The notes under the pieces: model-generated | Told to the model about the DNA's origin: nothing | Seen by the model: the letters and a program-made list of their open reading frames with translations, nothing else | Databases searched by the model: none | Position numbers and translations under genes: made by a program | Part shown: positions 34-12,891 of the stretch, piece by piece | Numbering within the stretch: position 1 is the stretch's first letter | Layout of the letters: every line of letters starts with the position of its first letter | Origin: an uncultured Woeseiaceae bacterium | Lineage (GTDB): Bacteria; Pseudomonadota; Gammaproteobacteria; Steroidobacterales; Woeseiaceae | DNA length: 48,227 bases | Assembly (NCBI GenBank): GCA_947259985.1 | Contig: CAMYOJ010000014.1 | Span: 1-48,227, forward strand | Direction: 5' to 3'

Positions 34-789
34 ATGTCCGAGAAATCACCCCCGCGTGGCGCCCAGGCGGCTCTGCGCGCAGTTCGTCTGCTGAAGTTAT
101 TCACGCCCGAACGGCCAGAGCTGCAGCTCGCCGAGATCAGCGATCTTGCAGGACTCAACAAGACCACGGCGCACCGCCTGCTGCAGGCATTGCATAGCGA
201 GTCACTTCTCGACAGGAATCATGACAGCGGCGCCTACCGCCTGGGACCCGTGCTTATGGCGCTGGGAGTGCAGGCGCTGTCGAGCAATGACCTCAGGCTG
301 CGCGCACGGCCGCTGTTGAAAAGCCTGGCCAGCGAGAGCGGTGAAACGGCGACGCTCGAGGTACCGATCGAAGACACGATGTTGATACTCGACGAGGTAA
401 CGAGCAGCCATTTCGTGGGCGCTGCGGGCAATGTGGGCACGCGCTGGCCAATACATGCCACATCCACGGGGAAGGCATTGATCGCTTTCGACGAGCACGG
501 AACGCGCCGTATCGGAGACGAGCTTTGCGAGCTCACGAGCCATACGATCACGAACCGCAGTCAGCTCGAGGCGGAACTCGACGAAATTCGTCGACGAGGA
601 TACGCGGAGACCGTCGACGAACTCGAAGACGGGTTCTCGGGTGTCGGCGCGGTCGTGCGCAGCCGCACGGGAGAGGTGCTCGGTGCACTGTCGATCTGCG
701 GACCGACGCAGCGCTTGTCCACAACGCGCCGGTGCCGTCTGGGCGCGATGCTCAAGGATGCCGCCGAGCGACTGCAGCCGTGCTATTGA
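34..789 (+). CDS. IclR-family transcriptional regulator
   Basis: This is a 251-residue one-component regulator of the IclR family. Residues about 10-70 form the winged helix-turn-helix; the recognition region reads AGLNKTTAHRLLQAL (39-53), which is typical of the family. Residues about 75-250 match the IclR effector-binding domain, including the stretch STGKALIAF. Length is normal. ATG at 34 is preceded by an A+T-rich leader with GGAACG just upstream, so the start is plausible, though the promoter may lie partly outside the window. It sits directly upstream of, and in the same orientation as, the polyamine operon that starts at 846. Control of that operon is the natural inference, but the ligand cannot be read from the sequence. 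Some IclR proteins respond to aromatic or short organic acids instead. Confidence 0.9.
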   Translation: MSEKSPPRGAQAALRAVRLLKLFTPERPELQLAEISDLAGLNKTTAHRLLQALHSESLLDRNHDSGAYRLGPVLMALGVQALSSNDLRLRARPLLKSLASESGETATLEVPIEDTMLILDEVTSSHFVGAAGNVGTRWPIHATSTGKALIAFDEHGTRRIGDELCELTSHTITNRSQLEAELDEIRRRGYAETVDELEDGFSGVGAVVRSRTGEVLGALSICGPTQRLSTTRRCRLGAMLKDAAERLQPCY

Positions 790-804
790 GAAATGACGCC
801 ATGG

Positions 805-810
805 TAGAAT
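805..810 (+). promoter_or_regulatory. Candidate -10 box for the polyamine operon
   Basis: TAGAAT lies in the 56-bp gap between the IclR gene and puuD, 35 nt before the puuD start, and a GC-rich stretch follows it. No good -35 box is visible, so an activator may be needed. The same TAGAAT-plus-GC pattern precedes the acyl-CoA ligase at 21366. Confidence 0.4.
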
Positions 811-845
811 TCGCCGCAACCAGCCGGTAACGAACAAAGAGCTTT

Positions 846-1610
846 ATGTACCCGAAACCACTCATAGGCGTGCCGGCAGACCGACGTGTGATCGACCCAC
901 ATCCGTTCCAGATGGTCGGTGAGAAATATCTTGCGGCGCTGATCAACGGCGCGGACGCGCTGCCATTGATGGTGCCTGTCATGCCTGACGATGTGGATAT
1001 CGACGAGCTGCTGCAGCAGTTCGACGGCATTTTCCTGACGGGCAGCTACTCGAACGTCGAGCCGCATCACTACGATGGCGAACCGAGCGAGGAGGGCACG
1101 CTGCATGATCCTCATCGGGATGCCGTTACGCTGCCGCTCGTCAAAAGGGCGCTCGAGTGCGGCGTGCCTGTGTTCGCGGTGTGCCGAGGTTTCCAGGAAC
1201 TTAACGTAGCGCTGGGCGGGTCGCTGCACCAAAAAGTTCACGAGGTGGAGGGATACAACAATCATCTCGAGAACAAGGCTGACCCGCTGGAGACGCAATA
1301 CGGACCGTCGCATGCCGTTACTCTTGTCGAAGGTGGGCTGCTACGCAACCTGGCGGGTACCGACAGCGCCATAGTCAATTCGTTGCACGCACAGGGCGTC
1401 GCACGCCTCGCGAAGGGCGTAAGCGTCGAGGCTGTGGCGGACGATGGCCTGATCGAGGCGTTTCGCGTCGACGGGGTGCAAGGATTCGCGCTGGCCGTAC
1501 AGTGGCACCCGGAATGGCAGGTTACGGTTACGAAGAACGAGTTCTCAATGCAGATTTTCAAGGCGTTTGGTGACGCGTGCAGGGCACGCGCCGCAGAGCG
1601 ACAGGTGTAA
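846..1610 (+). CDS. puuD: Gamma-glutamyl-gamma-aminobutyrate hydrolase (class I glutamine amidotransferase-like)
   Basis: The 254-residue protein is a peptidase C26 / PuuD-type hydrolase, which in the gamma-glutamylated putrescine route cleaves gamma-glutamyl-GABA to glutamate and GABA. The nucleophile elbow VFAVCRGFQELN puts the catalytic Cys at 113. AVQWHPEW supplies His221 and Glu223, completing the class I amidotransferase triad. GGSLHQKVH after the nucleophile is also typical of PuuD. Length matches the family (about 254 residues in E. coli). It is the first gene of a run in which the next gene starts two bases after its stop. Related peptidase C26 enzymes exist, but the neighbouring PuuA-like synthetase makes this assignment strong. 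Confidence 0.88.
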   Translation: MYPKPLIGVPADRRVIDPHPFQMVGEKYLAALINGADALPLMVPVMPDDVDIDELLQQFDGIFLTGSYSNVEPHHYDGEPSEEGTLHDPHRDAVTLPLVKRALECGVPVFAVCRGFQELNVALGGSLHQKVHEVEGYNNHLENKADPLETQYGPSHAVTLVEGGLLRNLAGTDSAIVNSLHAQGVARLAKGVSVEAVADDGLIEAFRVDGVQGFALAVQWHPEWQVTVTKNEFSMQIFKAFGDACRARAAERQV

Positions 1611-1611
1611 T

Positions 1612-2943
1612 GTGAGTAAGAAAGACGTATTTCAGGCGTGGCTCGAAGAGCGCAATATCGAGGATGTCGAGGCGTTCGTGCCCGATATGGCGGGCTCGGC
1701 GCGCGGTAAGGTCGTACCCGCCGACAAGTTTGGTTCAGGCGACATGAAAATGCCCGAAGCGATTTTTTCGCAGACGATTTCGGGCGACTACATCGATGAC
1801 AAGAACAACGTCGAAGATCGCGACATGTTCCTGGTCCCCGATCCGAAGACACTGCGGCCGGTTCCGTGGGCGAGCGATCCGGCCGCTTCGGTGTTCGTTG
1901 ACTGCTACCACCGCGACGGTTCGACAGTCACGAAATCACCGCGCAACGTATTGCGCAACGTGCTTGCCAAGTTCGAAGCTCGTGGCTGGGTGCCCGTGGT
2001 GGCGCCCGAGGTCGAGTTCTATTTGCTCAGCCCGCATTCCGACCCTAACGAGGAGGCCGAGCCGCCCGAGGGCCGTCTCGGCTGGACCGAAGGCGCGCGC
2101 CAGCCCTATAGCATCGATACGATGAACGACTTCGATCCGTTCATTAACGATGTGTACGCTTATTGCGAGGCGCAGGGCATCCGCATCGACACGCTGTCGC
2201 AGGAAATGGGGCCGGCGCAATTCGAGATCAACTTCCTGCACGGCAACGCCGTCGACAATGCCGACCAGGTATTCCTGTTCAAGCGCACGGTTCGCGAAGC
2301 CGCGATCGAGCACAAGATGCATGCCACGTTCCTGGCAAAACCGATGGCGGGGGATGCCGGAAGCGCGTTGCACATACACCAGAGCGTCATCGACAAGCAG
2401 GGCAACAACGTATTCTCGAAACCGGATGGCGAAGCCAGCGAGCTGTTCTACGGATTCATTGCCGGCCTGCAGCGCTACATGCCTGAAGTGATGCTGATTT
2501 TCGCGCCATACGTAAACTCGTACCGGCGTTTCATGGATCCCTGGGCATCTCCGGTAAACCTTGCCTGGGCGACCGACAACCGCACGGTCGGCCTGCGTGT
2601 GCCCGACTCGAGTCCCGAGGCGCGTCGTGTCGAGAATCGCCTGGCAGGTTCGGATGTTAATCCCTACCTGGTCATCGCGGCGTCACTGGCTTGTGGCTAC
2701 CTGGGCATGGTCGAAGGACTGAAGCCGACCGACTCGATCGAGGGCAGTGGCTACGGCGCGGACTTCGGCCTGCATCGGCACATTTATTCGGCCATTGATG
2801 CCATGCGCGAGAGCGACGCCATGCGCAGTATGCTGGGCGACGACTTCGTGACAGTGTATACGGCGCTCAAAGATCATGAGTACCGGGAATTCCAGGAGAT
2901 CATTACGCCCTATGAGCGTGAGATCCTGATGTTCAATGTCTGA
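1612..2943 (+). CDS. puuA: Gamma-glutamylputrescine synthetase (glutamine synthetase family)
   Basis: This is a glutamine synthetase-fold ligase of the PuuA/GlnA-like group, expected to join glutamate to putrescine with ATP in the cytoplasm. I use GTG 1612 (443 residues), which follows the puuD stop by one base and gives an MSKKDVFQAW start. An upstream TTG at 1567 in the same frame would overlap puuD and add an unlikely leader. Visible motifs are the metal-binding region APEVEFYL, the ammonia/substrate loop MGPAQFEINF, the ATP-site stretch GSALHIHQS, and NRTVGLRVP with the conserved arginine region. The short N-terminal domain and length of about 443 fit PuuA and related glutamyl-polyamine synthetases better than true GlnA (about 469 residues). 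Whether the substrate is putrescine, spermidine or another amine is not decided by sequence. Confidence 0.85.
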   Translation: MSKKDVFQAWLEERNIEDVEAFVPDMAGSARGKVVPADKFGSGDMKMPEAIFSQTISGDYIDDKNNVEDRDMFLVPDPKTLRPVPWASDPAASVFVDCYHRDGSTVTKSPRNVLRNVLAKFEARGWVPVVAPEVEFYLLSPHSDPNEEAEPPEGRLGWTEGARQPYSIDTMNDFDPFINDVYAYCEAQGIRIDTLSQEMGPAQFEINFLHGNAVDNADQVFLFKRTVREAAIEHKMHATFLAKPMAGDAGSALHIHQSVIDKQGNNVFSKPDGEASELFYGFIAGLQRYMPEVMLIFAPYVNSYRRFMDPWASPVNLAWATDNRTVGLRVPDSSPEARRVENRLAGSDVNPYLVIAASLACGYLGMVEGLKPTDSIEGSGYGADFGLHRHIYSAIDAMRESDAMRSMLGDDFVTVYTALKDHEYREFQEIITPYEREILMFNV

Positions 2944-2968
2944 AACCGGAGATCGCTGGAGGTGAACC

Positions 2969-4342
2969 ATGGCAGCTATTGAGAAGCGGTCCCGGCAGGA
3001 CTGGCAGGAACTCGACAAAGAGCATCATTTGCATCCGTTTACGGACCACAAGAGCCTGCACAAGAAACGCTCACGCATCATTTCGCGTGCAGAAGGTGTG
3101 TACATCTATGACGCCGACGGACACCGAATACTGGACGGCATGTCTGGCTTGTGGTGCGTCAATGCGGGATACGGCCGGCAGGAACTCATCGATGCGGCCG
3201 CCGAGCAGATGAAGGAACTGCCGTACTACAACAACTTCTTCCAGTGCGCACACCCACCGTCGATAGAACTGGCGGCGATGCTCAAGGAAGTCAGCCAGCC
3301 ACAATTTAATCGCGTGTTCTTCGCGGGATCGGGTTCGGAATCCAACGACACCATCGTGCGTATGGTGCGGACCTACTGGGACCTCATGGGACAACCTGGC
3401 CGGCATACGATCATCAGTCGCGACAATGCCTATCACGGTTCAACCGTGGCGGCGGCCAGCCTTGGCGGTATGAAGCCGATGCACAAGCAGAGCGGCTTGC
3501 CGATTCCGGGCATCGTGCATGTCGAACAGCCTTACTGGTTCGGCAGCGACCGGAGCCTGTCGCCCGAGGAATTCGGCCTCGCTGCGGCGCGATCGATCGA
3601 AGACAAGATTCGCGAGGTCGGGCCTGACAAGGTAGCGGCCTTCATAGCTGAGCCGATCCAGGGCGCCGGCGGTGTCATCGTGCCGCCCGACAGTTACTGG
3701 CCCGAGGTGCAGCGCATTTGCGATGAGTACGGCATCCTGCTCATATCCGACGAGGTCATCACGGGCTTCGGCCGCCTTGGTGAGTGGTTTGGCGCCGACT
3801 ACTACGGCACCAGGCCGGATTTCATGCCGTTCGCGAAAGGGGTTACCTCTGGTTACCTGCCGCTGGGTGGCGTGTTTGTCAGCGACCGGGTCGCCGACGT
3901 ATTGATAGACAAGGGTGGCGAGTTCTTTCACGGCTACACCTACTCGGGGCATCCGGCTGCGTGCGCCGTGGCCATCGCGAACCTCAGGCTTGTCCAGAAA
4001 GAAGATCTCGTCGAGCGCATCAAGTCGGACATCGGTCCGTACCTGCAGGACAAATGGCGCGCACTGGGCGAGCACGCGCTCGTTGGCGACACGCGCATGG
4101 TCGGTCTCATGGGCGCTTTCGAAATCGTGAAGAGCAAGTCACCGCTCGAGAAGTTCGATGAGAAGCGCGGAGCAGGCGTCGTGTTTCGTGACACGCTCAT
4201 GGAACTGGGAGCATGCATGCGCGCGGTAGGAGACACGATCATCTGCGCGCCGCCGTTCGTGCTGTCGCACGGCGAAGCGGATGAACTCATCGAGAAGACC
4301 TGGAAAGCGCTGGACCAGGCACAAGACCTGCTGTCGGCCTGA
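2969..4342 (+). CDS. spuC: Class III aminotransferase, putrescine/polyamine:pyruvate type
   Basis: The 457-residue protein is a PLP-dependent class III omega-aminotransferase. The PLP lysine is Lys290 in FMPFAKGVTSGYLPLGG, the pyridine-binding Asp is Asp261 in LISDEVITGFGR, and the N-terminal MSGLWCVNAGYGR (58-70) is a signature of the SpuC / omega-amino acid:pyruvate group. Its RBS GGAGGTG lies just before the ATG, and it starts 25 bp after puuA. In Pseudomonas, SpuC moves the amino group of putrescine to pyruvate. Here the enzyme could act on free putrescine or on gamma-glutamylputrescine, replacing the oxidase PuuB, which is absent from this window. The specific substrate is inferred from context. 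Confidence 0.85.
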   Translation: MAAIEKRSRQDWQELDKEHHLHPFTDHKSLHKKRSRIISRAEGVYIYDADGHRILDGMSGLWCVNAGYGRQELIDAAAEQMKELPYYNNFFQCAHPPSIELAAMLKEVSQPQFNRVFFAGSGSESNDTIVRMVRTYWDLMGQPGRHTIISRDNAYHGSTVAAASLGGMKPMHKQSGLPIPGIVHVEQPYWFGSDRSLSPEEFGLAAARSIEDKIREVGPDKVAAFIAEPIQGAGGVIVPPDSYWPEVQRICDEYGILLISDEVITGFGRLGEWFGADYYGTRPDFMPFAKGVTSGYLPLGGVFVSDRVADVLIDKGGEFFHGYTYSGHPAACAVAIANLRLVQKEDLVERIKSDIGPYLQDKWRALGEHALVGDTRMVGLMGAFEIVKSKSPLEKFDEKRGAGVVFRDTLMELGACMRAVGDTIICAPPFVLSHGEADELIEKTWKALDQAQDLLSA

Positions 4343-4357
4343 ACAGGGAGAGAACAC

Positions 4358-5323
4358 GTGGACAAGCACGATAGCGACCATGCCATAGCGCGCGAGAGCC
4401 TGTATGGGACGACGCCCGAGCCGACCTATGCCGGTGTCACGTCGTTCATGCGACGCAAGTACACCAAGGATCTCACCGGCGTCGACGTCGCGGTACTCGG
4501 TGTCCCTCTCGATACGGCGACCACGAACAGGCCCGGCAGCCGCTTTGGCCCCAGGGCGATTCGTAATGCGTCCACGATCATGGCCTGGGAGCGCCCTTAC
4601 GGCATGGAGTTCGACCCGTTTGACAAGCTGGCCGTGGCTGACGTCGGCGATTGCTACTTCGACTTCGGTCGACCGGAGAACGTGCCCGACGAGATCGAGG
4701 CTCATGCCTTCAACATCATCAACGAGGGGCCCTCGCTATTAACGTTGGGTGGCGATCATTTCATCGCCTATCCATTGCTCAAGGCGCATGCCAGCAAACA
4801 CGGCGCGCCATTGTCTCTGCTGCACTTTGATGCACACAGCGATACCTGGTCGGACGAAGACGACCGCATTGATCACGGCACGATGTTCTACTGGGCGGCA
4901 AGAAACGGCATCGTCGACCCGGCGACATCGGTGCAGATCGGCTTGCGCACCACTAATCACGATACGCTCGGTTTCAACGTCATCGATGCGGACACCGTGC
5001 ACGAAAAGGGCGTGGCGGCTGTGGTCGAGCAGGCCCGGCGGCACCTGGGAGACAGGCCCGTCTACGTGAGTTTCGATATCGACTGCCTGGATCCCAGTTT
5101 CGCACCGGGCACGGGCACGCCTGTTTGTGGAGGCCTTTCGAGCCACCAGGCGATGTCCATACTGCGTGGTCTCAAGGGCATCGACGTCGTCGGCATGGAC
5201 GTCGTCGAGGTCGCTCCGGCCTATGACGTCGGTGAGATTACAGCGCTCGCGGCAGCCCACCTGGCGATGGAAATGTTGTACCTGTTCGCTTGTAGCCCGC
5301 GCCGAGAAACAGAAGATCGTTAA
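4358..5323 (+). CDS. speB: Agmatinase-family ureohydrolase
   Basis: A 321-residue manganese ureohydrolase of the arginase/agmatinase fold. All metal ligands are present: His134 in GGDHF, Asp158/His160/Asp162 in HFDAHSD, and Asp240/Asp242 in SFDIDCLDPSFAPGTGTP. The start is GTG 4358 with a GGGAGAG ribosome-binding site; no in-frame ATG nearby fits as well. It is the last gene of the puuD-puuA-spuC run, 15 bp after spuC. Agmatinase would hydrolyse agmatine to putrescine and urea, feeding the upstream enzymes. Guanidinobutyrase and guanidinopropionase share these motifs, and in a catabolic operon either would also fit, so the exact guanidino substrate is uncertain. The gene meets the TetR gene tail to tail with only 6 bp between them. 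Confidence 0.87.
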   Translation: MDKHDSDHAIARESLYGTTPEPTYAGVTSFMRRKYTKDLTGVDVAVLGVPLDTATTNRPGSRFGPRAIRNASTIMAWERPYGMEFDPFDKLAVADVGDCYFDFGRPENVPDEIEAHAFNIINEGPSLLTLGGDHFIAYPLLKAHASKHGAPLSLLHFDAHSDTWSDEDDRIDHGTMFYWAARNGIVDPATSVQIGLRTTNHDTLGFNVIDADTVHEKGVAAVVEQARRHLGDRPVYVSFDIDCLDPSFAPGTGTPVCGGLSSHQAMSILRGLKGIDVVGMDVVEVAPAYDVGEITALAAAHLAMEMLYLFACSPRRETEDR

Positions 5324-5329
5324 CGAAGA

Positions 5330-6007
5330 TCAGCCGGGCACGGAGACCTCGCCGGGCAGGAAAACCCTCACAACCATGTCGGCAATCTCGTCGAGCGTCT
5401 CTTCCGATTCGATATCAATGTCGCTCGAATTGCGCAATTCATTGCCCAACGCAAGCAGTCCACCGGACGACAGGCGGATCATGTTGAATATCAGTCTCGG
5501 GTTACCTTGCGGCGCGACGCCGACGCGCTGCAATTCCTCGATCATTGCAAACGTGGCGTCGAAGAGAGGTCGCAAGTGGTTTTCAATTAGCCAGTCGAGG
5601 CGGGGATTGGGATAGCTGGCCTCCTGCACCATGACCTTGTGCAGGGCCGGCTGGCTCTTCGCGTAATAGACATAGGCGCGAATCAGTGACGTCATACGTT
5701 CTTTCGGGCAGCTCTCCCTGCTGTTCTCGAGTGCCGCGCCGAGCGAGCGCGTGAATTCGCGGAATACCTTGTCCGCAGCAGCGCGCCAAAGCTGGTCCTT
5801 GTTCTTGAAGTGGTAGGTAATCAGCGGATGATGCACGCCGGCACGTTCGGCGATATCGCGTGTCGATGTGCCTTTGAAACCATTTTCCGAAAACGCCTCG
5901 ATCGCCGCGTCCAGCAACTTGTGTTGCGTGACAACACTGCGCTGTTGCTGCTTGCGTGCAGGGCGGTTGCTGCCCGGAACAGTTTCTTGTGACACGATCT
6001 TCGCCAT
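5330..6007 (-). CDS. TetR-family transcriptional regulator
   Basis: A 225-residue TetR regulator. The N-terminal helix-turn-helix is clear at about residues 30-75 (AAIEAFSENGFKGTSTRDIAERAG then HHPLITYHFKNKDQLW). The C-terminal part (about 85-220) is a helical ligand-binding domain with no recognisable ligand signature. A basic Gln-rich leader of about 25 residues precedes the DNA-binding domain. The gene follows the receiver-TonB gene on the same strand after 89 bp and ends 6 bp from speB. A 10-bp inverted repeat just upstream of its ATG suggests autoregulation. The target genes cannot be named. Confidence 0.9.
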   Translation of the reverse strand: MAKIVSQETVPGSNRPARKQQQRSVVTQHKLLDAAIEAFSENGFKGTSTRDIAERAGVHHPLITYHFKNKDQLWRAAADKVFREFTRSLGAALENSRESCPKERMTSLIRAYVYYAKSQPALHKVMVQEASYPNPRLDWLIENHLRPLFDATFAMIEELQRVGVAPQGNPRLIFNMIRLSSGGLLALGNELRNSSDIDIESEETLDEIADMVVRVFLPGEVSVPG

Positions 6008-6013
6008 AAAGCA

Positions 6014-6039
6014 GAATCCCGCTTAGACTAGCGGGATTC
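6014..6039. promoter_or_regulatory. Perfect 10-bp inverted repeat upstream of the TetR gene
   Basis: Arms GAATCCCGCT (6014-6023) and AGCGGGATTC (6030-6039) flank a 6-nt centre. The repeat ends 7 bp before the TetR start codon. It fits a TetR-type autoregulatory operator. It also lies downstream of the receiver-TonB gene and could form a hairpin acting as a terminator, although the T-run after it is poor. Confidence 0.6.
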
Positions 6040-6096
6040 CTAGACTCAATCCAGTGTGCACCTGAAATCGCGCCGATCGCGCGTCGGTGGGCGCCT

Positions 6097-9015
6097 TTAT
6101 TCGAACGCGAACATCATGCGAACGCCGGTGCGTGTCTCGACGGCCCTGCCGTTCTCGACCACCGGCTCGAACTCCCACCGCTCGACCGCTTTGACGGCGG
6201 AATTGACGAAAGTTTCTCCTGGTTCGGACTTGCGCACCTCGACATCCTTGACCGTACCGTCGGTCGTGACAATGAATATCACGTCGACCCATCCGGACAG
6301 GCTACGGCGCTCCGCGGAACGTGGATATTTTGGCGCGACGTACCTGGTGCGCTTGAGCGAACTGATCGGCACAGTCTTTGGTCCGGCGGGCGGAGCGCTT
6401 TGCGCCGACGCATTCGTCGAAGAAGGCTCGACGGCTCCTCCGCTCGCATCGTCGGTCGCCGGTGTTGAGGTATCCGGACCAGGCACTGCACCGTCGTTGC
6501 TTGCCGCTTCCGTCGCAGCGACTGCGCCGGCCACGATTTCGTCGCCGGCGGTAGCCGCATCGTTCGTCACCTCTTCTGCTTCGGCTGCACTTGCTGCAGC
6601 TGCTTCTGCCGCAGCCGCTTCTGCTGCAGCGCGATCGGCGGCTGCTTGTCGTTCGGCGGCTGCGAGTGCTTCGGCAGCCTGCCGTTCGGCTTCTGCGATG
6701 CGCTGTGCTTCGGCCTGGCGCTCGATCTCGCGGAGTCGCTCCGTTTCGGCCTGGCGCTGGCGCTCGGCAAGCGCATCACGTGCATTGGCGAGCGCGGCCT
6801 CAGCGGCGATTAGCTCGGCATTTCCTGGATCGAATGCGCGGACGTCGCCCAGCAGATTCTGCGCCCCGTTGAAATTACCGTTGTCGATCTCATTGCGGGC
6901 CTGCAACACGATCGTGTTCGCGACCACCGCAAGACCCTGGCGAGCGGCCGTGTTTCCGGGTTCGTTGGACAGAACCAGTTCGTAGTAATAACGGGCGTTG
7001 TCATTCGCCGGAGCCAGCAGGTCGCCTTCTTCGAGGCGGGCGTTGGCGAGTGCCAGCACTTCGTCGGCTTGCTGTGCATTACGTGCAGCGTTGAGTTCGG
7101 CCTCTACTGTATCGATCTCGGCGTTGTCCGACACACCGAGTGAGCGTGCAGCGGCGAGCGAACTGGCGGCGTCCTCGAAACGCTCATCGAGAATTGCCGC
7201 GCGCGCGTCGACCAGATGACCGCGCAGCTGCATCTGGAAAAGCTGGGCAGCCAGGAACGGCAGGCGCGCATTGTCGGGATCGACGCTGCCGATCCTCTGT
7301 AACGCGGCATCCGCGTCGTCGAGGCGTGCTTCGAGTAGCGCAGTTTCCGCGAGGCCCAGCGCTTCGGTGATAATCGCTTCGTACTCTGCCGCGAGCTCCG
7401 CATTGTCTGGGTACGCAGTGGCGGCGGCCGCAAATAGCTCAACGGCGTTATTGCCGGCAGGATTGAAAATCTGGCCGGCCTCGCGCGCGAGTCGCGCCTC
7501 CTCGACCATGGCATCGAGGTCGATACCCGTCTCGGTGCTCGCAGGCGCAATGAAATCCTCATTCGCTTCAGTGACCGCAGGCGTCGTCGCGACCGGCGCC
7601 TCTTTGACCGCAACCGGCTCGTCGGAGCCGCCCAGTAGCCAGAACAGCAGGCTGGCAACGACCAGGACGGCCACAGCCCCGGCACCCAGCACCTTGGGAT
7701 TCCTGAGCGGCGATTCGTCTCCGCCGGAGGCTGAAGCCTGGACTTCTGGTGTCTTTTTCGCTGCTTCGTCGTCCTTCTTGTCTTCACTCGAAAACTTCTT
7801 GCCGACCGAGCTGATCAGGCCAGTGACAGTCTCGGTGAAGCTGGAGTCGACGCTGCCAAACGCGGCGTCGAGCCCTTCGCTGACCGGGGACGAGCTATCG
7901 ACCGGTTCCGCAGACCCCAGGGGCGGGTCTGCCGGCACCGAGCTTGCGACTTTGGGGGCCCTCTCGCTGGCTTCAGGCTTCCCGCCTTTGGCCTTCCTGG
8001 GCTTGTCCGCGGGCTTCGGTGAAACCTTCAGAGCGGGCCTGGCCGCCGTCTCGGAGGCGGAGGCCGCGCCTTTCGCCTTGAACGCGGCGTCGGGCGCTTC
8101 GAGGTGGTGCTTGACCGAGGCCTCGACCGCGAGACGCGCACGACCGGGTGATACGGGTTTGAGCAGGAAACGGTATACCTTGCCGCGATTGATGAGATCC
8201 ATGAGCATTTCGCCATCATCACGACGCCCGGCAACTATCGATACCAGTCGTGTCGACCCTTTGCGCAGGTGCTGCGTCAGCTGCTCGACCTTGTCGCCCA
8301 CCATGGCGGCGTCGACTACGGCAACGCCGACTTTGTGCTTGCGAATGGTCTCATCGGCCTGGGCCAGTGTCGTGGCGTAATGGATGTTGTGAATGCCGCG
8401 AGCCGAATCCTTAATCGTGGCGAGAAACTCCTGGTCCTTGGTCAGGACAAGGACGTCGACGGATCGGGCTCCCACCGCTACCGCGGCAGAGATTTTCTTC
8501 GGGTCCAGCTTAGGCATCTGGCCGGTGCCGTCGCTGATGATCGTCGCCCCGTTCTCGGACGTTTCCATGACGATGTGTTCAGCGGGCTCATCGACATTGG
8601 CCGCCGTGTCATTGGCCGACTCCGCCAGTGCCATGAGGCGCATTTGTCTCGTCGCATCATCGACGAGCTTGGAGATCATGTCGCCCGTGACGTTGCCACG
8701 CACGACCTGGAATACCTCTTTTTCACCGACCAGCGCTTCGAGACCATTGTCAGCGTTGCCGGCCAGAAGGATGCCGAGCGTGTCGGGCGAGCGCTTTTTT
8801 GCCTCACGCAGCGCTTCGAGACCGCTCATGCCGGGCAAGTCCTGGGCCGAGACGATCACATTGATTGGGGTTTCGCCGAGCGTGGTCAAGGCTTCGCTGC
8901 CGCTGGTCGCACAATGCACGGTGTAGCGGTCGCTGAACCCCGAACTGAGGTTGTCCAGCGTGCTCTGTTCACTGTGCAGTAACAATACCTGAGTCTTGTA
9001 TTCGTGCAGGGGCAC
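6097..9015 (-). CDS. Receiver-like / TonB C-terminal domain fusion membrane protein
   Basis: A 972-residue protein with an unusual order. Residues 8-122 look like a response-regulator receiver domain, but Ala57 in VSAQDLPGMSG replaces the phospho-accepting Asp. Residues 187-303 form a second receiver-like domain that keeps Asp235 (AVVDAAM) and Lys286 (FLLKPVSPGR). A charged linker rich in Pro, Lys and Ala follows. One membrane helix lies at 441-462 (VLGAGAVAVLVVASLLFWLL). Residues about 495-720 are repeated helices resembling tetratricopeptide units. An Ala/Glu/Arg-rich coiled coil follows (about 720-800). The last 90 residues are a TonB C-terminal domain (YPRSAERRSLSGWVDVIFIV; VERWEFEPV). 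The predicted topology is cytoplasmic receivers and periplasmic TonB. GTG start 9015 has a strong GGAGGA site. ExbB/ExbD are not adjacent. It may couple an internal signal to outer-membrane transport or the cell envelope; that is inference. Confidence 0.8.
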   Translation of the reverse strand: MPLHEYKTQVLLLHSEQSTLDNLSSGFSDRYTVHCATSGSEALTTLGETPINVIVSAQDLPGMSGLEALREAKKRSPDTLGILLAGNADNGLEALVGEKEVFQVVRGNVTGDMISKLVDDATRQMRLMALAESANDTAANVDEPAEHIVMETSENGATIISDGTGQMPKLDPKKISAAVAVGARSVDVLVLTKDQEFLATIKDSARGIHNIHYATTLAQADETIRKHKVGVAVVDAAMVGDKVEQLTQHLRKGSTRLVSIVAGRRDDGEMLMDLINRGKVYRFLLKPVSPGRARLAVEASVKHHLEAPDAAFKAKGAASASETAARPALKVSPKPADKPRKAKGGKPEASERAPKVASSVPADPPLGSAEPVDSSSPVSEGLDAAFGSVDSSFTETVTGLISSVGKKFSSEDKKDDEAAKKTPEVQASASGGDESPLRNPKVLGAGAVAVLVVASLLFWLLGGSDEPVAVKEAPVATTPAVTEANEDFIAPASTETGIDLDAMVEEARLAREAGQIFNPAGNNAVELFAAAATAYPDNAELAAEYEAIITEALGLAETALLEARLDDADAALQRIGSVDPDNARLPFLAAQLFQMQLRGHLVDARAAILDERFEDAASSLAAARSLGVSDNAEIDTVEAELNAARNAQQADEVLALANARLEEGDLLAPANDNARYYYELVLSNEPGNTAARQGLAVVANTIVLQARNEIDNGNFNGAQNLLGDVRAFDPGNAELIAAEAALANARDALAERQRQAETERLREIERQAEAQRIAEAERQAAEALAAAERQAAADRAAAEAAAAEAAAASAAEAEEVTNDAATAGDEIVAGAVAATEAASNDGAVPGPDTSTPATDDASGGAVEPSSTNASAQSAPPAGPKTVPISSLKRTRYVAPKYPRSAERRSLSGWVDVIFIVTTDGTVKDVEVRKSEPGETFVNSAVKAVERWEFEPVVENGRAVETRTGVRMMFAFE

Positions 9016-9070
9016 TTCGTTTCCTCCAGGGGCTTATGTTGAATCGCGTGCGCGGTACTTGCGTCCGATG

Positions 9071-9127: not shown

Positions 9128-9164
9128 GTGACGCGCCGCACAGTGAAAGTGCCGGGCGCGTCAC
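9128..9164 (-). terminator. Possible hairpin downstream of thrS
   Basis: GTGACGCGC (9128-9136) pairs with GCGCGTCAC (9156-9164), nine base pairs with an interior that can pair further. It lies 9 bp after the thrS stop on the reverse strand. No clear U-tract follows, so intrinsic termination is only a possibility. Confidence 0.35.
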
Positions 9165-9173
9165 GTTTGGGCC

Positions 9174-11087
9174 TCAGGCGCGGCTTTCGACCTCGGAGAG
9201 GAGGTTCTCGATGGCTTCGTCGAGCGGCATGACCTGTTGCTTTTTCGAGCCCAGGCGCCGCATCGCGACCGTGCGGTTCTCGAGTTCCCGCTGGCCGACC
9301 GCGAACTGCACGGGCACCTTCGCCACGCTGTGTTCACGCACCTTGTAGGAGATTTTCTCATTCCTGAGGTCGGTTTCCGCCCGGATGCCCCTGGCTCGCA
9401 GCTCGGCCGCTACCTCGTCGGCATACTCGTCAGCCTCGGAGGTGATGGTCAGGACCTTGACCTGCACGGGAGCAAGCCATAGCGGCAGGTTGCCGGCGTG
9501 ATGCTCGATGAGAATGCCCATGAAGCGCTCGAGGGAGCCGAAAATGGCCCGGTGCAGCATGACGGGCAGGTGCTTGTTGCCGTCTTCGCCGATATAGCTC
9601 GCACCGAGGCGTCCCGGCATGTTCAGGTCTACCTGGAGCGTGCCGCACTGCCAGTCTCTGCCGATTGCATCGCGCAGCACGAATTCGAGCTTGGGCCCAT
9701 AGAACGCGCCTTCGCCGGGATTATGGGTGTACTCGAGGCCCGCTGCCTCGAGCGCCTTGATGAGAGCGGCTTCAGCCTGGTCCCAGACGGCGTCTTCGCC
9801 GACGCGGGCTTCGGGCCGGTCGGCAAACTTGATGCGAATATCGTCGAATCCGAAACTGCGGTAGATGCCGAGGATCAGGTCACAAACTGCGATCGATTCA
9901 TCGGTAATTTGCTCGGGCGTACAGAAGATATGGGCGTCATCCTGCGTGAACGCGCGCACGCGCATCATGCCGTGCAACGCGCCCGATGGTTCGTAGCGAT
10001 GGCACTTGCCGAATTCGGCAAGCCGGACCGGCAGGTCCCTGTAACTCGTGATGCCCTGTTTGAACACCTGCACGTGGCCCGGGCAGTTCATGGGCTTGAT
10101 CGCGTACTGTCGACCGTCGACGGTCTCGGTCGTGAACATGTTGTCGCCGAACGTGTTCCAATGACCCGAGGATTCCCACAGGGCACGCGACATGATTTCG
10201 GGCGTGTTGATTTCCTGGTAGCCGGCGGCGTTTTGCTGCTCACGCATGAAGTTGATCAGGCTCTGGAACAGGTTCCAGCCTTTCGGGTGCCAGAACACGG
10301 CGCCGGGCGCCTCTTCCTGAAAATGGAACAGGTCCATGACGCGACCGAGTCGGCGGTGGTCGCGCTTCTCGGCCTCCTCGAGCATGTTCAGGTATTTCCT
10401 GAGCTGTTTTTCGTTCGACCACGCCGTGCCATAGATGCGCTGCAGCATTTCGTTGTTGGAATCGCCGCGCCAATAAGCGCCCGACACATGCGTGAGTTTG
10501 AAGGCCTTGCCCAGTTTTCCGGTCGACGGCAGGTGCGGGCCGCGGCACAAATCAATGAAGTCGCCCTGGCGGTAGAGCGTCAGGTCTTCGTCCGACGGAA
10601 TGCCCTCGATGATCTCGGCCTTGTACTCCTCGCCAATGCCGCGGAAGAATTCTGCCGCCTTGTCGCGCTCCCAGACCTCGCGTTCAATGGCCTCATCACG
10701 GTCGACGATGTCCTTCATGCGTGCCTCGATGGCTTCGAGGTCGGACTCGGTGAACGGCTCCTCGCGCGAAAAGTCGTAGTAGAAGCCGTTTTCGATGGCA
10801 GGGCCGATTGTTACCTGGGTGTCGGGCCAAAGTTCCTTGACGGCTTCGGCGAGCACGTGGGCCGCATCGTGTCGCAGCAGCTCGAGCCCGTCGTCCGAGT
10901 CGCGCGTGAGTATCTCGACGCTGGCATCATCGTCGATGACTCGTGTCAGGTCCCGAAGCTCTCCGTTGATACGAACGGCCACGGCGTCGCGCGCGAGGCT
11001 CTTGCCTATGCTCGCGGCAATCTCGGCGCCGCTCGTCGCGGCATCGTAGTTCCGTGCGGAACCATCGGGTAACGTAATTTTCGGCAT
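9174..11087 (-). CDS. thrS: Threonyl-tRNA synthetase
   Basis: A class II aminoacyl-tRNA synthetase of 637 residues, which charges tRNA-Thr in the cytoplasm. Domains in order are TGS (1-60), the editing/second additional domain with HDAAH at 73-77, the class II catalytic core with [11 protein letters not shown] carrying the zinc-binding Cys, and the C-terminal anticodon-binding domain (about 530-637). The frame is open upstream to 11249, but [10 protein letters not shown] is the usual ThrS start, so I place the ATG at 11087. The longer version would run through the promoter palindrome. Length matches the family (about 640 residues). The usual downstream infC-rpmI-rplT cluster is not here; the gene is divergent from glnS instead. 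Confidence 0.97.
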
Positions 11088-11135
11088 GATCCAGACTTTG
11101 TTCGAGGGTGATTCCTGCGTGCCTGCCGGCACGGC

Positions 11136-11178
11136 GCGGTATTGTACGCGAATTGCGGCAGTTCGCGTACAATACCGC
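11136..11178. promoter_or_regulatory. 17-bp palindrome, likely mirrored divergent promoter for thrS and glnS
   Basis: GCGGTATTGTACGCGAA (11136-11152) and its exact reverse complement (11162-11178) flank a 9-nt centre. Each strand carries TTGTAC and TACAAT 20 bp apart. TACAAT is at 11169-11174 for glnS, and the mirror image at 11141-11146 serves thrS. Inferred transcript starts would leave leaders of about 28 nt (glnS) and 47 nt (thrS). The repeat could also be a regulator's operator. Confidence 0.6.
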
Positions 11179-11208
11179 CCCTTCAATCCAGCAGCCAGAC
11201 CACAGCAG

Positions 11209-12891
11209 ATGAGCGAACAGGAGCCGCGGGACTTTATCCGCCAGATCATTCACGACGACCTCGAGTCCGGCAAGCACTCCGAGATCGTCACTCGCTTCCC
11301 GCCGGAGCCGAACGGTTACCTGCATATCGGCCATGTCATGTCGATCTGCCTGAACTTCGGAGTTGCGGCCGAAACCGGCGGCCGCACGTTTCTGCGCCTC
11401 GACGACACCAACCCTGGCAAGGAGAGCCCCGAATACGTCGACGCGATCAAACGTGACGTGCACTGGCTGGGCTTCGACTGGGAGGATCGGCTGACGCACG
11501 CTTCCGATTACTTCGGGCAGCTGCACGATTCTGCTGTCCGCCTGATCGAACTCGGAGTGGCTTACGTTGACAGCCTGAGCGCCGAGGAAATCCGCGAGCA
11601 CCGCGGCACGCTGACCGAGCCGGGCACCAACAGCCCTTTCCGCGACCGCAGTGTCGAGGAAAACCTCGACCTGTTTCGCCGCATGCATGCGGGAGAGTTT
11701 GGGGACGGCGAGCATGTGCTGCGCGCGAAGATCGATATGGCGTCGCCGAACATGAATATGCGCGACCCGGCGGTGTACCGGATTCGACACATACCGCACC
11801 AGAATGCCGGCGACGAATGGTGCATCTACCCAATGTATGATTTTGCTCACGGGCTGTCTGATGCCTATGAGGGCATCACGCATTCGCTGTGCACGCTCGA
11901 GTTCGAGGACCATCGGCCACTCTATGACTGGTTTCTCGACCAGCTTCAGCCCGAGCACCGTCCGCGACAGATCGAGTTCTCACGGCTCAACCTGGCATAC
12001 GCCATCACGAGCAAGCGCAAGCTCAGTGCACTGGTCGAGGAAGGCATCGTTAATGGTTGGGACGATCCGCGCATGCCGACGATTGCGGGCATGCGGCGGC
12101 GTGGCTATCCGCCTGCGGCCATGCGCGAATTCGTGAAGCGAGCGGGCGTCACGAAGAAAGACAAGCTCATCGAGATGGGCGCGCTCGAGACCTGTGTGCG
12201 CGATACGCTCGGGGACGTCGCCGAACGGCGCATGGCCGTGCTGCGACCGCTCAAGGTGGTCCTGACCAACTATCCGGAAGGCCAGGTCGAGACGATGGAA
12301 GCCATGAATCACCCGGCGAATCCCGAGATGGGCACGAGAGAAATGCCATTCTCGCGCGAGCTCTGGATCGAGCAGGACGATTTCATGGAGGAAGCGCCGC
12401 GCAAGTTCTTCCGCCTGAAGCCTGGTGGCGAAGTGCGTTTGCGTTTCGGGTACATCATCAAGTGCGACGAGGTCATCAAGAACGATGCCGGCGAGGTGGT
12501 CGAGCTACGCTGCAGCTACGATCCCGACACGCGCAGCGGAACGGGCAGCAGTGACCGCAAGGTTAAGGGCACGATCCACTGGGTATCGTGCGAACATGCC
12601 ATCGATGCCACGGTGCGCTTGTACGATCGCCTGTTCACCGAGGCGAACCCGAATGCGGCGAGTGATTTCCATAGCGTCCTGAACCCGAACTCACTCGAGA
12701 CCATAAGTGCCAGGCTCGAACCGGCGCTGGGCGAGCTGGCAGCGGGGCAGGCCGTGCAGTTTGAGCGCCTCGGCTATTTTTGTGCCGACGAAAAAGACGA
12801 CGCCGACGAAGCGCGCGTGATCAATCGCATTGTGACGCTGCGCGATTCATGGGCGAAACTCGAAAAGCAGGCCATGCAAAAACAGGGCTAG
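11209..12891 (+). CDS. glnS: Glutaminyl-tRNA synthetase
   Basis: A class I synthetase of 560 residues that attaches glutamine to tRNA-Gln. The HIGH motif is HIGH at 39-42 within [18 protein letters not shown] follows, and the KMSKS loop appears as ITSKRK at 266-271. The C-terminal beta-barrel anticodon-binding domains occupy about 340-560. E. coli GlnRS has about 554 residues, so it is full length. I use ATG 11209 (MSEQEPRDF); the longer open frame to 11086 runs through the promoter palindrome. No strong Shine-Dalgarno sequence precedes it. GlnRS presence implies direct charging of tRNA-Gln, not the GatCAB route. The gene meets the SAM hydrolase gene tail to tail with a 4-bp stop overlap. Confidence 0.96.

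Follow-up and report, generated by a model that had tools for sequence, protein, structure and literature searches.

Results

Organisation of the gene and genomic setting

The window, that is, the whole stretch of 48,227 nucleotides from an uncultured Woeseiaceae bacterium that was analysed, carries at 6097..9015 of its minus strand a gene for a protein of 972 aa. The single open frame, Pfam and alignments gave its layout as two receiver domains, a transmembrane helix, TPR-like helical repeats, a long helix and a TonB_C domain; all the features described below are on the same strand. As read directly from the sequence, the gene starts with a GTG codon (9015-9013), and a ribosome-binding site (GGAGG, 9023..9027) lies 7 bases 5' of it. 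In the Pfam search, Response_reg matched the protein with 45.9 bits over two stretches and TonB_C with 65.2 bits over residues 894-969, and no cytoplasmic output domain, GGDEF or FHA was found. The sole strong hydrophobic helix spans residues 439-465 (7621..7701), with Arg438 and Lys441 at its N-terminus and followed by Ser-Asp-Glu, charges that would suit an N-in, C-out topology; about 440 residues precede this helix and form the cytoplasmic part.

The initial annotation had described one reading frame, without its strand, holding two receiver-like domains, a single helix at 441-462, a periplasmic helical and coiled-coil region and a TonB_C domain. All these elements were recovered: the receivers by the two Response_reg stretches and two AlphaFold2 receiver folds, the helix by hydrophobicity (now placed at 439-465), the periplasmic region by an AlphaFold2 model with helical repeats and a helix at about 733-813, and the TonB_C domain by both Pfam and the TonB fold of the model.

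Upstream of the gene lies 9174..11249, which we take to be thrS, and downstream a gene for a TetR-family regulator (5330..6007). Both neighbours are conserved; with the window included, thrS was found upstream, in the same orientation, at 54 of the 55 loci with room for it and the TetR-family gene downstream in 49/54. Folding placed a GC-rich hairpin (9128..9164) between thrS and the gene, and a terminator-like hairpin followed by TGCTTT (6014..6039) between the gene and tetR. Because hairpins flank it on both sides, the gene is probably its own transcription unit, and an operon with thrS or tetR was rejected, the conserved order being no proof of co-transcription. A common position beside thrS, hinted at by the receiver-TonB_C genes of three other loci (L157, L158 and L160), was also rejected because all three belong to one genus.

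For the neighbour scan, custom profiles built from the sequences of this analysis were run in six frames against all open frames of at least 60 aa, in the whole window and in the 61 loci at which the protein was found (up to 7 kb per side). Except within the frame of the gene itself, neither the window nor the 61 loci gave a match to a histidine kinase, another receiver, CheX, ExbB, ExbD or a TonB-dependent receptor, in agreement with the earlier remark that no histidine kinase or ExbBD gene is adjacent.

Distribution and integrity of the gene

The 61 loci come from 60 species-level assemblies (Site_A34 gives two), mostly Woeseiaceae or Gammaproteobacteria MAGs. The protein was matched by 990 protein records, and both Response_reg and TonB_C are annotated on all of the best 120 of these. 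With a full-length profile, at least 77 of the 107 genomes of the source's own family were seen to carry the receivers and the TonB end within a single open frame; among the matches listed, 43 genomes matched without a break from position 2-4 through to 962-963, and a further 34 had pieces of both the receiver and the TonB_C part sharing one open frame. A joining of two genes by misassembly or frameshift, for which the initial annotation had pointed to the region near residue 430, is already refuted by these one-frame matches, by the 61 public contigs that carry the protein and by the two domains annotated on the best 120 protein records, and its probability is negligible.

The receiver profile gave some match in 94 of the 107 own-family genomes and a strong one (E <1e-70) in 89, the five weak matches (G413, G452, G381, G392 and G400) being scored as absent. 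None of the nine genomes of the small-genome genus g280 (1.1-2.0 Mb) gave a strong receiver match, and among 369 genomes across the class a strong match was obtained in just two, both of the source's own genus. A C-terminal piece is present in G392 and in G405, which had no receiver match, and G435, one of the genomes with an unbroken match, has an inner TGA. Some members, among the matches listed, bear the database name 'TonB family protein' or, misleadingly, 'serine/threonine-protein kinase'.

Fold, active-site residues and conservation of the receivers

Receiver 1 (residues 8-128; 8632..8994) and receiver 2 (186-306; 8098..8460) are separated by an inter-receiver linker (129-185; 8461..8631). 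AlphaFold2 returned receiver folds at residues 8-135 and 187-306, as the first reading of the N-terminal region had proposed; all five strands and five helices were present in receiver 2, and receiver 1 had its five strands, with the fourth helix unresolved and low confidence at 94-99. The N-terminal model was moderate (mean pLDDT 71.8). In Foldseek it matched receivers, with the tandem-receiver protein PleD as the top match, although full-length TM-scores were below 0.4 and the superposition was good for single receivers only.

Receiver 1 is degenerate, having H14-S15, A57, A85 and R106-G107 at the characteristic positions. In 57 aligned sequences, the 972-aa protein included, position 57 was Ala in 54, Val in one, Glu in one and a gap in one, so that the missing phospho-Asp seen at the outset (Ala57) is a general trait. 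Asp59, two residues further on, was considered as a shifted phospho-acceptor and rejected, since Asp occurs there in just 35/57 sequences. Receiver 2 had been read as keeping Asp235 and Lys286 without the usual acidic pair, and this holds throughout: both residues, and Asp194, were found in 57/57 sequences, and Thr192-Lys193 replace the pair, next to the invariant Asp194. Residues 271-300 of this domain show the modal residue at 97% on average.

We compared 25 fused proteins of the 972-aa kind with 31 tandem-receiver proteins from split relatives, in which the TonB part is a separate gene product; the latter were chosen from the best 120 of 1882 matches. Receiver 1 of the split proteins has the acidic pair in all 29 readable cases (two gaps) and the Asp, Thr and Lys in 31/31. 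In the fused proteins the acidic pair has become His-Ser (25/25) and the Lys has become Gly (25/25), the phospho-Asp being replaced by Ala in 24 and by Glu in one, and the Thr position being Ala in 23 and Thr in two. The Asp of receiver 2 is kept in all the fused and all the split proteins, and its Lys in 25/25 and 30/31, respectively; both sets lack the acidic pair there, making this receiver half-degenerate. These comparisons suggest that, within the 25 and 31 proteins, receiver 1 lost its phospho-acceptor role in the fused branch only, and that receiver 2 had probably not been a normal phospho-acceptor at any stage. The full set of acidic pair, Asp, Thr/Ser and Lys is absent from either receiver of the 972-aa protein. 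A classical phospho-switch seems unlikely in it, because receiver 1 lacks the usual Asp and receiver 2 the Mg-binding acidic pair.

Identity to the 972-aa protein was averaged over the 40 of the 61 loci whose main parts align. It was 79.2% for receiver 1, 76.1% for the inter-receiver linker and 83.1% for receiver 2, compared with 58.2% for the periplasmic repeats and 69.1% for TonB_C; among the comparison proteins, GlnRS gave 81.5%, ThrRS 84.9% and TetR 68.0%, both receivers being about as conserved as GlnRS. The variable linker that follows receiver 2 (307-438; 7702..8097) aligned in just 16/40 loci, at 40% identity. The inter-receiver linker was mostly of low confidence in the AlphaFold2 model despite its conservation. 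Conservation of a dead receiver at the level of a tRNA synthetase, together with that of a linker which is unordered in the model, points to protein binding as the role that the receivers and linker may serve.

Periplasmic arm and TonB tip

The AlphaFold2 model of residues 490-972 comprised helical repeats, a long helix, a disordered linker and a TonB fold. The TPR-like repeats (500-732; 6820..7518) had a pLDDT of about 97; self-alignment revealed a repeat unit in two copies starting near 504 and 654, and BamD/TPR proteins were matched. A single Ala/Glu-rich helix of about 80 residues (733-813; 6577..6819) leads to a flexible linker (814-878; 6382..6576) of variable sequence and a pLDDT mostly below 50. 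The C-terminal domain (885-972; 6100..6363) matched the structure of a FoxA-bound TonB CTD with an rmsd of 1.2 and is, as modelled, a full receptor-binding fold.

The sequence of the membrane helix is little conserved in the 57-sequence alignment. It lacks His in 52 of the 54 orthologues scanned, no helix being clearly found in the other two (L066 and L067). Residues 466-893 contain 19 Pro and no EPxxKP-like Pro-rich run.

Kinase operons and other relatives

On another contig of the same genome, consecutive genes encode a histidine kinase (759 aa), a tandem receiver (401 aa), a TM-helical-TonB_C protein (434 aa) and a further receiver (157 aa). Regions for further split loci were selected from family and order searches on the basis of receivers and TonB_C, with no regard to kinases. 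Custom profiles detected a tandem receiver gene adjoining a TM-TonB_C gene at 25 loci, with a histidine kinase directly upstream at 22 of them (21 genomes; the locus of the source genome and 21 others). Among these 22, the TonB gene of L161 is broken and the kinase of L203 is cut by the contig end; as for the remaining split loci, L193 and L218 have no kinase and a weakly matched second receiver, and L219 is ended by the contig end. The kinase profile was seeded from two of the split-operon kinases and extended on the same locus set, and Pfam confirmed the kinase at the four loci checked of the 22 (L100, L192, L202 and L205). This three-gene arrangement, with the tandem receiver encoded between the histidine kinase and the TM-helical-TonB_C protein, is a new finding here. 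In BLAST the 972-aa protein was only weakly similar to the split TonB protein (E 0.002), and the kinship of fused and split forms rests on shared part order, genome searches and profiles.

Other arrangements were also found. A receiver 2 fused to the TonB arm lies beside a kinase, a single receiver and CheX at L155, L188, L196 and L217; L199 has a similar kinase, receiver and CheX set but no receiver-2 match. At L187 and L195 the fusion of receiver 2 to the arm is followed by a receiver-Ser/Thr-kinase gene. L197, in another family, carries a second, separate double-receiver fusion, whose receiver 1 keeps its Asp and Lys and has lost the acidic pair. Finally, TonB_C occurs in Ser/Thr kinase-TM-TonB_C proteins (L162 and L198) and with an M56 (BlaR1-type) peptidase (L163); these resemble the 972-aa protein in joining a cytoplasmic or membrane signalling domain to TonB_C and differ in the signalling domain, TonB_C being the sole clearly shared part.

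In trees built from receiver 2 plus TonB_C, the clade of the 972-aa protein grouped with L204 (FastTree 0.98, UFBoot 98) and fell among single-receiver fusions, apart from the main split (kinase-operon) clade, and the split forms together did not make one clade. In a tree of TonB_C alone, the grouping of the 972-aa clade with L204 was not recovered. The place of the clade among single-receiver fusions and the non-monophyly of the split forms suggest that the fused or split state probably changed more than once, by more than one fusion or fission. A simple fusion of the two genes of the kinase operon was rejected, because the clade and L204 lie among the single-receiver fusions. Repeated fusion is a classical sign of parts acting together.

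Discussion

Since its split relatives have a kinase and an intact receiver 1, the 972-aa protein is, as far as sequence comparison goes, a branch that lacks the kinase and is phosphorylation-dead, within a family whose members link two-component signalling with a TonB-type arm. In the split relatives, gene order, intact sites and the PleD-like layout suggest a chain in which the histidine kinase would phosphorylate receiver 1, the phosphorylated receiver would dock on receiver 2 and the docked pair would alter the dimer state or the reach of the TonB arm. In the 972-aa protein, with the receivers fused to the arm and receiver 1 presumably no longer phosphorylated, a cytoplasmic partner would instead bind the linker and the conserved surfaces of the receivers, and its binding would determine whether the rod in the periplasm allows the TonB tip to engage an outer-membrane TonB-box partner. 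We give about an even chance to this reading of the protein as an inner-membrane trans-envelope arm under the cytoplasmic control of a PleD-like receiver tandem, bound by a partner without phosphate on receiver 1; its switching would most likely be by proteins docking on the pseudo-receivers.

The receiver folds with PleD as the top match, the kinase-tandem receiver-TM-TonB_C order at 22 loci, and the receiver 1 quintet, complete in the split relatives and lost in 25/25 fused proteins, support such receiver control. So do the gene sets in which a receiver-2 arm accompanies a kinase, receiver and CheX or a receiver-Ser/Thr kinase, the receivers being better conserved than TonB_C (79% and 83% against 69% over 40 loci), and the match to the FoxA-bound TonB CTD. 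Against it, the gene stands alone between hairpins, so that its neighbours give no function; the wiring of the kinase operons may not carry over directly to a clade that falls among single-receiver fusions; the Asp and Lys retained in receiver 2 may allow some phosphorylation there; and both the low PleD TM-scores and the moderate N-terminal model weaken the structural comparison. The initial annotation had proposed that the cytoplasmic residues tie transport or envelope coupling to an internal signal. For envelope coupling the tie is a reasonable reading, since related operons encode a histidine kinase together with a receiver 1 that is intact, and receivers are indeed joined to a trans-envelope arm; a classical phospho-switch as its means is unlikely in this protein.

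PleD (tandem receiver-GGDEF) resembles the 972-aa protein in its tandem receivers and differs in having a cyclase where the latter has a membrane-TonB arm; in the 972-aa protein, moreover, receiver 1 is dead too. The second receiver of PleD is a non-phosphorylated adaptor. With response regulators the protein shares the receiver fold, whereas a cognate kinase, present at 22/22 split operons, is absent from the window and the 61 loci.

To our knowledge, GltG has the nearest published layout. This protein (PglI) of the Myxococcus Agl-Glt gliding machine is described in the accessible portions of two papers as FHA-TM-TonB_C and as binding the motor protein AglR in a two-hybrid test (PMC3169522, PMC5349195). 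According to the same portions, it has, like the 972-aa protein, a cytosolic signalling domain, one membrane helix, a periplasmic helical part and a C-terminal TonB_C; it differs in having FHA where the latter has two receivers and in being encoded with gliding machinery, no kinase-receiver operon being described for it there. The AglR contact lends some weight to an energised transducer of TonB or GltG type, pulled by an ExbBD-, TolQR- or AglRQS-like proton motor encoded elsewhere, with the receivers merely tuning it. The genome has six MotA_ExbB-family matches, one of them in an ExbB-ExbD-ExbD-TonB_C cluster that has TPR genes next to it and is similar to the Agl-Glt core, and the predicted receptor-binding fold would also suit a motor-driven protein. 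TonB, as described in the accessible portion of PMC10907165, has a SHLS-type His motif in its membrane helix and an ExbD-binding D-box just after it. The 972-aa protein shares TonB_C with the CTD fold and departs from TonB in its long cytoplasmic part instead of a short tail, its TPR-like repeats and helical rod instead of a Pro-rich linker, and its lack of a helix His and of adjacent ExbBD. The poorly conserved, His-free helix of the orthologues, the absence of an EPxxKP-like linker and the absence of motor genes from the window and the 61 loci in the six-frame scan thus speak against a motor. The missing His carries little weight, since it is also lacking from the ExbBD-linked TonB that the genome encodes on contig 26, beside two ExbB and two ExbD frames. 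On balance we consider a motor-driven arm possible but less likely than partner docking.

Less probable still is that signals flow inwards, the periplasmic TPR/TonB_C arm sensing the state of the outer membrane or cell wall and the pseudo-receivers acting as a docking platform that reports to a cytoplasmic partner. That the most conserved parts are cytoplasmic (receivers 2 and 1 and the linker between them, in that order) would fit such a flow, and an outside signal is plausible for the M56 peptidase and Ser/Thr kinases that also bear TonB_C, but where the operon also encodes a sensor kinase, the receiver presumably acts after it, suggesting outward flow, and the protein has no cytoplasmic output domain in Pfam.

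Among the matches listed in full-text literature, a scope with most subscription papers outside it, we found no description of a receiver-TonB_C protein, nor do the accessible portions of PMC9239204 and PMC9389320 contain one.

Returning to receiver control, the broader proposal is a new class of two-component output in which a (pseudo-)receiver tandem switches a periplasm-spanning TonB-type arm, with the 972-aa protein as its orphan pseudo-receiver branch; we advance it tentatively, at slightly less than an even chance. If it is true, a histidine kinase or a partner could directly make or break contact between the inner and outer membranes, and the kinase-operon system may be a two-component system acting directly on the cell envelope. 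As far as we know, the regulation of TonB- and TolA-like proteins from inside the cell is poorly known. Here, in several families of one gammaproteobacterial order, histidine kinases, receivers and a CheX-like phosphatase are placed next to a TonB tip, and these natural gene sets and fusions make such inside control approachable with purified components. Receiver 1, conserved yet dead and with an intact relative in the same genome, offers a clean case of pseudo-receiver evolution.

Linker between the receivers and neighbouring genes

The linker joining the two receivers of the 972-residue protein (window positions 8461-8631) was mostly of low confidence in the structure model but had a mean identity of 76% across the 40 aligned loci; this segment may be a partner-binding peptide. 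At the start of the window, five consecutive genes (34-5323) encode look-alikes of an IclR-type regulator, a PuuD-like hydrolase, a glutamine-synthetase-like (PuuA-type) enzyme, an aminotransferase and an agmatinase, as judged from their sequences. This row, whose gene order is partly conserved at related loci, probably has a role in polyamine use.

TonB_C genes in other settings

Two further TonB_C settings were found in the genome that the window comes from. Contig 59 (L102) carries a TPR(937)-TPR(218)-ExbB-ExbD-ExbD-TonB_C cluster similar to the Agl-Glt gliding core of Myxococcus, and on contig 19 (L103, 4912-5829 and 7064-15878) a TonB_C gene lies close to pilG/pilH/chpA-like chemosensory genes, a setting shared by Pseudomonas tonB3.

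At L159, a TonB_C protein with a long N-terminal part followed by a membrane helix (4075-8303) is encoded directly before a TonB-dependent receptor gene. Proteins consisting of a Ser/Thr protein kinase, a membrane helix and TonB_C are encoded in the same order of bacteria at L162 (3798-6401) and L198 (2951-5767), both with a receptor-like match nearby. Finally, five loci (L155, L188, L196, L199 and L217) contain gene sets of a kinase, a single receiver, CheX and TonB_C, and Hpt was present in the kinases of the two sets checked (L155 and L196). These five gene sets represent a second way of wiring signalling to a TonB arm, the membrane-anchored periplasmic part ending in TonB_C.
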